Positions 24,649-25,833 of a DNA stretch of 64,000 bases are shown here, one piece after another (position 1 is the stretch's first letter; the number at the start of each line of letters is the position of its first letter). The notes beneath the pieces are model-generated. The model was given only the letters and a program-made list of their open reading frames with translations, did not search any database and was not told the DNA's origin. Location of the stretch: NCBI GenBank assembly GCA_944325595.1, contig CALVAQ010000002.1, positions 1-64,000 of the forward strand, read 5' to 3'. The DNA is from Candidatus Gastranaerophilales bacterium. Its GTDB lineage: Bacteria; Cyanobacteriota; Vampirovibrionia; Gastranaerophilales; Gastranaerophilaceae. The translations under genes were made by a program, and so were the position numbers.

Positions 24649-24736
24649 GGAGAGGTGTCCGAGTGGCTTAAGGTGCGGATCTCGAAAGTCTGTGTGCAGC
24701 AATGCACCGTGGGTTCAAATCCCACCCTCTCCGCCA
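24649..24736 (+). tRNA. tRNA-Ser (anticodon CGA)
   Basis: The 88-base gene has a GGAGAGG/CCTCTCC acceptor stem, the D-loop AGTGGCTTAAGG typical of tRNA-Ser, an anticodon stem CGGAT/GTCTG with loop CTCGAAA (anticodon CGA, reads UCG), a long variable arm (TGTGCAGCAATGCAC region), T arm GTGGG-TTCAAAT-CCCAC, discriminator G and an encoded CCA. The last 16 bases are repeated twice downstream. Confidence 0.95.
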
Positions 24737-24912
24737 TATTTTTATGATTTTCTGAACCCACGGTGCCATGGGATAATTTATAATGTTTCGAGCTATGGCT
24801 CAAAACGTCCCACCCTCTCCGCCATATTTTTATGATTTCCTGAACCCACGGTGCCGTGGGATAATTTATAATGTTTCGAGCTAAGGCTCAAAACGTCCCA
24901 CCCGCTCCGCCA
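24721..24912 (+). repeat. 88-bp tandem repeat built from the tRNA-Ser 3' end
   Basis: CCCACCCTCTCCGCCA, the 3' end of the tRNA, recurs at 24809-24824 and (one change) at 24897-24912, giving a period of exactly 88. Between copies lies a 72-base module with few differences. Each module holds TGAACCCACGGTGC (24753-24766 and 24841-24854), a perfect 14-base reverse complement of the tRNA at 24704-24717, and GTTTCGAGC/GCTCAAAAC hairpins. The second module forms a better CCCAC/GTGGG stem than the first. These are not extra tRNA genes, since the 5' half is missing. Confidence 0.85.
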
Positions 24913-24920
24913 TTTAATAA

Positions 24921-24952
24921 AAAAAGGTTGGCTTTAGCCAAACCTATTTTTT
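24921..24952 (+). terminator. Terminator after the tRNA-Ser repeat
   Basis: AAGGTTGGCT and AGCCAAACCT pair with one bulged A and are followed by ATTTTTT. It would end the tRNA-Ser transcript after both repeat modules. Confidence 0.7.
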
Positions 24953-25115
24953 ATATTAAGGATTGTGGCGGAACACACAAAGCAAAGCTTTGTCAGTAGG
25001 TTTATTATGGTTTATCAGGACATTTGAGATAAGGGTTTTGAGTCTAAATCGCCGAGTTGTTGGGACTTTGAGGCTAATTTATAGTCCGCTTTGAGAAAAA
25101 CTGCCAATAACGTAG

Positions 25116-25270: not shown

Positions 25271-25388
25271 GGTAATAATGGCGTTAGAAACAAAAGTTAT
25301 ATTAATTTCAAACGGGGTTCGGTGCGGAGCCCTGATGTGGTTTCGGTTAGAGATTTTTTAATTAAGAACAAAGATTTCTGCTTTATCT

Positions 25389-25610
25389 TTCACCCGTCCG
25401 GAAATTCGCTGTCTTGGATTTCCTTCTCGCTCGGTATTACCGTTCGCTTCGCTTTTGCTGGTGCTCACTTCATACCTCGCTCCTCGGGTTTCACCCGTCC
25501 GGAAATCCGCTGTCTTGGATTTCCTTCTCGCTCGGTATTGCCGTTCGCTTCGCTTTTGCTGGTGCTCACTTCATACCTCGCTCCCCGGGTTTCACCCGTC
25601 CGGAAATCCG
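25389..25610. repeat. 101-bp tandem repeat
   Basis: CACCCGTCCGGAAAT(T/C)CGCT starts at 25391, 25492 and 25593, giving two full 101-bp units and a partial third. The first two units differ at only a few positions. The unit contains TTCCTTCTCGCTCGGTATT and GCTCACTTCATACCTCGCTC. Since 101 is not a multiple of three, it is not a protein repeat. Confidence 0.8.
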
Positions 25611-25833
25611 CTCTTGGATTATTGGCGTTCACAAGGTTTAGTATTCCGTTTCGAATTTTTATTCTAAAAATTCTTTACTTCATCAACCTTGTTCACATGG
25701 CTGTTCGCTCACTTCGTTCGACTCCACAGCCGCTCAAAATCCGCTCTTGGATTATTGGCGTTCACAAGGTTTTGCATTCCGTTTCGAATTTTTATTCTAA
25801 AAATTCTCCACTTCATTAACCTTGTTCACATGG
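25604..25833. repeat. 133-bp repeat with nested inverted repeats (two copies)
   Basis: AAATCCGCTCTTGGATTATT begins at 25604 and 25737, and the copies run to GTTCACATGG at 25700 and 25833 with a different filler at 25701-25736. Each copy has an outer inverted repeat ACAAGGTT/AACCTTGT (25631-25692 and 25764-25825) and an inner one GAATTTTTA/TAAAAATTC (first copy 25653-25673). The start overlaps the third partial 101-bp unit, so the two repeat types share a junction sequence. It looks like a duplicated hairpin element. Confidence 0.75.

Follow-up and report, generated by a model that had tools for sequence, protein, structure and literature searches.

Why should a serine tRNA gene be followed by two nearly identical units, each of which ends like the gene itself and carries part of its T arm in antisense orientation? 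The question is raised by a stretch of 64,000 nucleotides (hereafter the window; positions 1 to 64,000 of contig CALVAQ010000002.1, assembly GCA_944325595.1) from a Candidatus Gastranaerophilales bacterium whose genome comprises 1.9 Mb in 30 contigs. The original prediction, made from the letters of the window, had left two answers open: a precursor trailer that pairs with the T arm and competes with tRNA folding or 3' processing, or the scar of an element that copies tRNA ends.

The tRNA-Ser(CGA) gene is intact, encodes its CCA and occupies positions 24649..24736 of the forward strand (ARAGORN; Rfam RF00005), on which all features of this locus are given. Repeat finders delimited two 88-bp modules directly behind it, module 1 at 24737..24824 and module 2 at 24825..24912, with 97% identity to each other. 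Each unit closes with a copy of the last 17 nt of the tRNA, and the predicted 88-bp periodicity of the tRNA end was confirmed, with TCCCACCCTCTCCGCCAT at 24720, 24808 and 24896 and one mismatch in the third copy. Module 1 contains an antisense T-arm piece, TGAACCCACGGTGC (24753..24766), a sense copy of the T-stem 5' strand, CCATGGG (24766..24772), a hairpin termed type A in the place of the T loop (GTTTCGAGC-TATG-GCTCAAAAC; 24785..24806) and a copy of the tRNA 3' end made up of T-stem 3' strand, acceptor 3' strand and CCA (24808..24824). The corresponding parts of module 2 are the antisense piece, again an exact inverted match (24841..24854), the type A hairpin (24873..24894) and the end copy with the mismatch (CCCGCTCC; 24896..24912). 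The CCATGGG of module 1 has two possible pairing partners, the antisense piece and the T-stem 3' copy that closes the module; in units of this kind the antisense piece can likewise pair with the following CCATGGG or CCGTGGG, which can alternatively pair with the T-stem 3' copy at the unit end. A terminator was expected behind both modules, and the only terminator-like site at the locus does lie there: a hairpin, GGTTGGC-TTTA-GCCAAACC, followed by a T-run (~24926..24952). A decayed 28-nt piece of a larger module type (GAACACACAAAGCAAAGCTTTGTCAGTAGG; 93% identity) follows at 24974..25001. In Rfam searches of this locus the tRNA alone reached the gathering score and no other family did. Further on, 650-1000 bp behind the tRNA gene (25388-25800), the window also holds 2.3 tandem copies of a 101-bp repeat, together with another palindromic repeat family (GCTCTTGGATTATTGGCGTTCACAAGG...), which is also nested within the 3' module of tRNA-Leu(CAA).

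Both copies of the 14-nt piece TGAACCCACGGTGC are exact reverse complements of tRNA positions 24704-24717. When the spacer was shuffled 20,000 times with its dinucleotides preserved, antisense matches to the tRNA extended to 13 nt at most (two cases) and never to 14 nt; the match is therefore not a product of chance. The argument that such a match is improbable twice over stands in this respect, but the two matches represent one event and its tandem copy. The agreement between the unit length and the length of the tRNA proved to be a coincidence, as the units at tRNA-Ser(CGA) of relatives measure 87-90 bp and in other species ~185 bp.

Analysis of public genomes revealed exact matches to the type A hairpin exclusively in Candidatus Gastranaerophilales assemblies. 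Matches to the type A unit were present in 23 of the 23 genus genomes searched, and the tRNA-Ser(CGA) region was readable in most of these. Behind the gene, relatives carry zero, one, two or three small units, the larger unit of ~185 bp, or mixtures; one relative (G002) has two full identical copies of the larger unit and a partial third. All complete units at this gene terminate in the tRNA 3' end. Turnover between close relatives was observed: genomes G009 and G021 share 96.8% identity over the upstream 1.2 kb, yet have three and no small units beside the tRNA, respectively. The sequence CCATTAAATAAAAAAGAGGTTGGC stands immediately behind the tRNA gene in G021 and G010 and behind the third unit in G009. 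A terminator-like sequence closely similar to that of the window adjoins the tRNA in G021 and G010, where adjacent small modules are absent. Since G021 retains a hybrid remnant of a small unit further downstream, part of the turnover is loss, and turnover may consist mostly of loss and local expansion.

The comparison of relatives for decay of the 14-nt match, which had been proposed as a check, gave no random decay; the antisense T-arm core is retained in most modules, and of 11 aligned small units 10 have kept GAACCCACG. What recurs across relatives is the core GAACCCACGG alone, preceded by T or C; the last three bases, TGC, are common to some species only. The base before the core is T in units next to a TTCAAAT tRNA and C in units next to a TTCGAAT tRNA; the exception is G015, with a T-form antisense piece beside a TTCGAAT tRNA. 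The tRNA-Ser(CGA) gene itself occurs as two alleles distributed patchily in the genus, one with the variable arm CAGCAATG and TTCAAAT, the other with CAAGCGATTG and TTCGAAT. Together with one hybrid allele (G003), this patchiness suggests recombination at the gene. At about ten relatives' loci, a sequence beginning with TGTA lies ~40-190 bp behind the tRNA 3' end copy and contains repeated GTACGGATA..GATTATTTTGG motifs in several of them; by its sequence it looks like a Tn7-like transposon end.

The layout extends well beyond one serine tRNA. Among the 40 tRNA genes of the window's genome, units closing with the 3' end of their own tRNA were found behind Lys(CTT), Lys(TTT), Phe, Thr(CGT), Arg(CCG), Glu(CTC), Gln(TTG), Leu(CAA) and others, often two in tandem and often after an antisense T-arm piece. 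Mirror-image units occur upstream: they mostly measure 84-110 bp, stand in tandem arrays of up to six, usually lie 16-31 nt before the tRNA, and carry tRNA nucleotides 1 to 12-20 in sense and a strand of the D arm or anticodon arm in antisense. In the examples read, promoter-like sequence would lie outside the 5' units, which would thus belong to the precursor. Occupancy was counted in four Gastranaerophilales genomes with 135 tRNA genes for which both flanks were available, using 12-mers from the last 26 or first 26 nt of each tRNA within 600 nt of the gene and with other tRNAs masked. With this probe, which overlooks diverged units, 3' end copies were found downstream of 41/135 genes and upstream of none (Fisher p 2.5e-14), and 5' end copies upstream of 32/135 and downstream of none (Fisher p 6e-11). 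Counting either side, 18/35, 11/35, 15/30 and 17/35 genes were occupied in the four genomes, and which tRNAs are occupied varies between genomes. The copies are specific not only to the side but also to the gene: 44/139 downstream flanks matched their own tRNA, compared with 6/4926 pairings with other tRNAs of the same genome.

The ends of tmRNA genes are copied as well, with 3' copies downstream of 3/11 and 5' copies upstream of 3/11 genes and none on the wrong side. Taken with the side-specific copies of own-tRNA ends at both ends of tRNA genes, this gives strong support to the idea of an element that copies tRNA ends. Type B modules (described below) lie at tmRNA 3' ends in several species, in tandem in G009. 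None of 16 RNase P RNA genes has end copies, which excludes a general effect of non-coding RNA genes. One genome of another genus of the family had 3' copies at 3/43 and 5' copies at 0/43 tRNA genes, one genome of another family of the order 1/41 and 0/41, and one cyanobacterial genome no end copies at any of 36 tRNA genes; a phylum-wide feature is ruled out by these counts. With tmRNA positive, RNase P RNA negative and the other genomes poor, the modules are tied to tRNA-like genes and patchy among lineages. Their copy numbers are uncertain, because the Gastranaerophilales genomes are draft assemblies, many of them metagenome bins, several contigs end at tRNA genes and the window itself starts inside a unit; the module layout recurs independently across many assemblies. 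The start of the window, and of its contig (positions 1-73), lies inside a 5' module of type B whose end copy, GCCACAGGCCC, corresponds to the antisense 5' end of tRNA-Met(CAT), and the assembly probably breaks at that tRNA.

Comparison of the units revealed a common grammar. Read outward from the gene, the order is arm, acceptor strand, flank, inverted arm, in some cases a sense arm strand, a hairpin, the rest of the arm, acceptor strand and flank. Its outer portion amounts to an incomplete tRNA copy that holds a hairpin in the T loop on the 3' side and in the D loop on the 5' side; the borders of the copies fall in the T loop or T stem and in the D stem or D loop, respectively. The 3' units of tmRNA show the full grammar: GGAATCGAACCC, a small hairpin, GGGGTTC, TA, a CCTCTC..hairpin..GGCAGAGT and CCCTCGTCTCCACCA. 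Overall the units span ~84-230 bp and contain several hairpin families, and their parts are variably present; with a threshold of 10-11 nt, about half of the 3' units proved to have the antisense piece.

The hairpin families are shared across tRNAs to different degrees. In DNA searches type A was found among relatives at tRNA-Ser(CGA) only, and the type A unit had no significant match elsewhere in its own genome; the evidence for its mobility is thus the weak similarity to the units of other tRNAs. Type B, by comparison, spans ~45 bp, with CCTCTC, a stem with the loop ATTTA or ACTYA, and TCGGCAGAGT, and occurs on 24 5' sides and nine 3' sides in four genomes, in one outward orientation on 29 of the 33 sides, against four. 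Its stem covaries, pairs 2-5 being represented by three or four Watson-Crick types, in an alignment of 47 rows in which some are nested or tandem copies, so that its counts do not stand for independent events. Away from tRNAs, types B and C occur in the genome too, type C within larger palindromes. The window's genome contains such a dispersed palindrome family away from tRNAs, in which the type C hairpin (CATCCTGATTCGTACGGCTC..CGCCTACGACTCAAGC) is nested between the arms AAGAGAAA and TTTCTCTT. Short-period direct repeats of at least 14 nt were counted in 464 kb of this genome; five lie within 400 nt of the seven tRNA genes there and 26 elsewhere, several of the latter in coding repeats and at the tmRNA gene.

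The only close parallel found was the rtT repeats of E. coli tyrT. As with the modules described here, the tyrT/tyrV repeats consist of units behind a tRNA gene that each close with the tRNA 3' end (19 nt in tyrT). The order between tyrT and tyrV is GGGGAAGGAT (antisense T-stem/acceptor), GAGAAGC, AAGGTTCGACTC (sense T stem), hairpins and AATCCTTCCCCCACCACCA; in both systems the units contain a sense T stem (with TTCGA in tyrT) and hairpins where the T loop would be. The Gastranaerophilales modules thus share with RtT the tandem units behind a tRNA that close with its 3' end, as well as an antisense tRNA 3' region followed by a sense T stem and hairpins. The antisense piece differs, being taken from the T-stem 5' strand in type A units and from the T-stem 3'/acceptor strand in RtT. 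The E. coli locus examined has 3' units only, whereas in Gastranaerophilales both sides of tRNAs and tmRNA are involved, and in module-rich Gastranaerophilales, unlike at E. coli tyrT, the modules accompany roughly 30-50% of tRNA genes. The RtT covariance model RF00391 gave four matches in the E. coli control (cmscan) and none at the window locus (E up to 10) or at 10 Gastranaerophilales loci (E up to 1). By this test the modules are not RtT RNA; they are RtT-like in anatomy. RtT-like sequences have been linked with BIMEs and attenuation (PMC2965389), rttR has been listed as REP-bearing (PMC12306157), and RtT has been reported in Thioalkalivibrio (PMC8092127). Type B resembles REP/BIME elements in being a short, dispersed, non-coding hairpin with a covarying stem and conserved ends, and it forms such extragenic palindromes at many sites, while type A was seen at one gene; the modules differ from REP/BIME in that their hairpins sit within copied tRNA ends and mostly share one orientation. 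In the literature searched, nothing was found that links Gastranaerophilales with tRNA tandem repeats or mobile elements.

The resemblance to RtT, for which an RNA product is annotated in E. coli and whose structure is discussed and supported by covariation (PMC7657543, PMC8250186), raises the possibility that the modules are regulatory RNA transcribed with the tRNA, which would either compete with processing and with the folding of the T arm or be set free as a small RNA of the rtT kind. At tRNA-Ser(CGA) the position of the sole terminator-like site behind both modules agrees with this. Folding predictions, which are equilibrium values that leave out tRNA modification and co-transcriptional order, put the T-stem probability of the bare tRNA at 0.985; the value is 0.34 once the antisense piece is included, 0.90 with the next 7 nt, 0.02 with the whole first unit and 0.05 with both units and the terminator, compared with 0.90 on average for shuffled trailers; the real trailer is thus predicted to disrupt the fold far more than shuffled ones. 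The predicted competition between trailer and T arm is accordingly possible at equilibrium in thermodynamic terms. The tRNA is made first, however, and the sense T-stem copy that follows the antisense piece reclaims it at that stage, as the rise from 0.34 to 0.90 with seven more transcribed nucleotides indicates. In the four genomes a terminator-like hairpin separates the tRNA from the 3' module at 21 of 44 comparable loci, which makes a folding switch impossible as a general role. The occupied tRNAs also vary by genome, and a close relative does without adjacent modules. Interference with folding by the modules would be local at most, and we regard a regulatory role as unlikely.

Two other explanations place the origin of the modules at the DNA level. 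Plain slippage or tandem duplication beside tRNA genes, with the inverted pieces left by template-switch errors at tRNA hairpins, would need no element, and it agrees with the variable length of the direct repeats, the forward-inverse-forward order, the near-identity of tandem copies and the confinement of modules to tRNA-like genes. Duplication does not, however, supply hairpin families with a conserved loop, conserved ends and a covarying stem that recur at many tRNAs mostly in one outward orientation, and RNase P RNA, which is likewise rich in hairpins, has no copies; we consider slippage alone improbable. Alternatively, the modules could be satellites of a tyrosine recombinase whose attachment sites are tRNA 3' ends. 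Like the integrative elements of this class, they occur in tandem arrays in which a direct repeat of the tRNA 3' end bounds each unit, and an intact gene is restored. Unlike them, they use 5' ends nearly as often as 3' ends, and dozens of tRNA-specific end sequences, 5' ends included, stand in place of the one constant core expected of an integrase. The units of ~90 bp contain no genes, and the 88-bp unit has no capacity to encode an integrase. A satellite origin therefore appears very improbable.

We favor the explanation that rtT/REP-like hairpin elements are lodged in duplicated tRNA ends, forming small non-coding tRNA-end modules that act mainly at the DNA level, and consider it probable on the evidence at hand. 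According to this model, the outer part of the tRNA gene, reaching from the T loop to its 3' end or from the D loop to its 5' end, would be duplicated along with the flank. The duplicate would hold a hairpin element in its T or D loop, and an arm copy in inverted orientation would separate it from the intact tRNA. The antisense T arm would then be the inner strand of the module's own hairpin, derived from the tRNA. Modules would amplify in tandem and later be lost between the direct repeats. They would be tolerated, since the gene remains intact and processing removes its leader and trailer. Anatomy, specificity for side and gene, hairpin families common to different tRNAs and turnover among close relatives are direct observations; we infer that the hairpin element is mobile, and the modules themselves would be neutral rather than regulators. 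Against the model speak the occurrence of types B and C away from tRNAs and the possibility that turnover is mostly loss and local expansion.

Candidates for the copying machinery are a hairpin-recognising transposase or recombinase, or template switching at arm hairpins. The direct repeats vary in length (~18-41 nt), which disfavors a standard transposase, and a crude scan for HUH motifs in 464 kb of the 1.9-Mb genome (24%) gave no match and no RAYT-type motif. The forward-inverse-forward order would fit template switching at arm hairpins, although this alone leaves the shared hairpins unexplained. Retroviral-like copying of a primer-binding site up to m1A58 was also considered and excluded, as the borders of the 3' copies range from T stem to T loop. 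A more far-reaching proposal, put forward tentatively and with less than even confidence, is that in some Gastranaerophilales the D or T loops of tRNA and tmRNA genes are the specific targets of a mobile hairpin element, which inserts there, duplicating the gene end and writing an inverted arm while the gene always survives, and that RtT is what remains of this process in E. coli, which belongs to another phylum.

In E. coli the tyrT/rtT repeats give the impression of a peculiarity limited to a single tRNA operon. This study found their layout in a distant phylum, where some genomes have it at about one third to one half of their tRNA genes, mirrored at 5' and 3' ends, and at tmRNA too. Owing to this broad occurrence the origin of the layout becomes testable, as tRNA-directed insertion or as template switching at tRNA arms. 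That assemblies of these genomes break at tRNA genes is likely due in part to the modules, and in these bacteria the processing machinery must handle long precursor leaders and trailers that contain inverted copies of tRNA arms.
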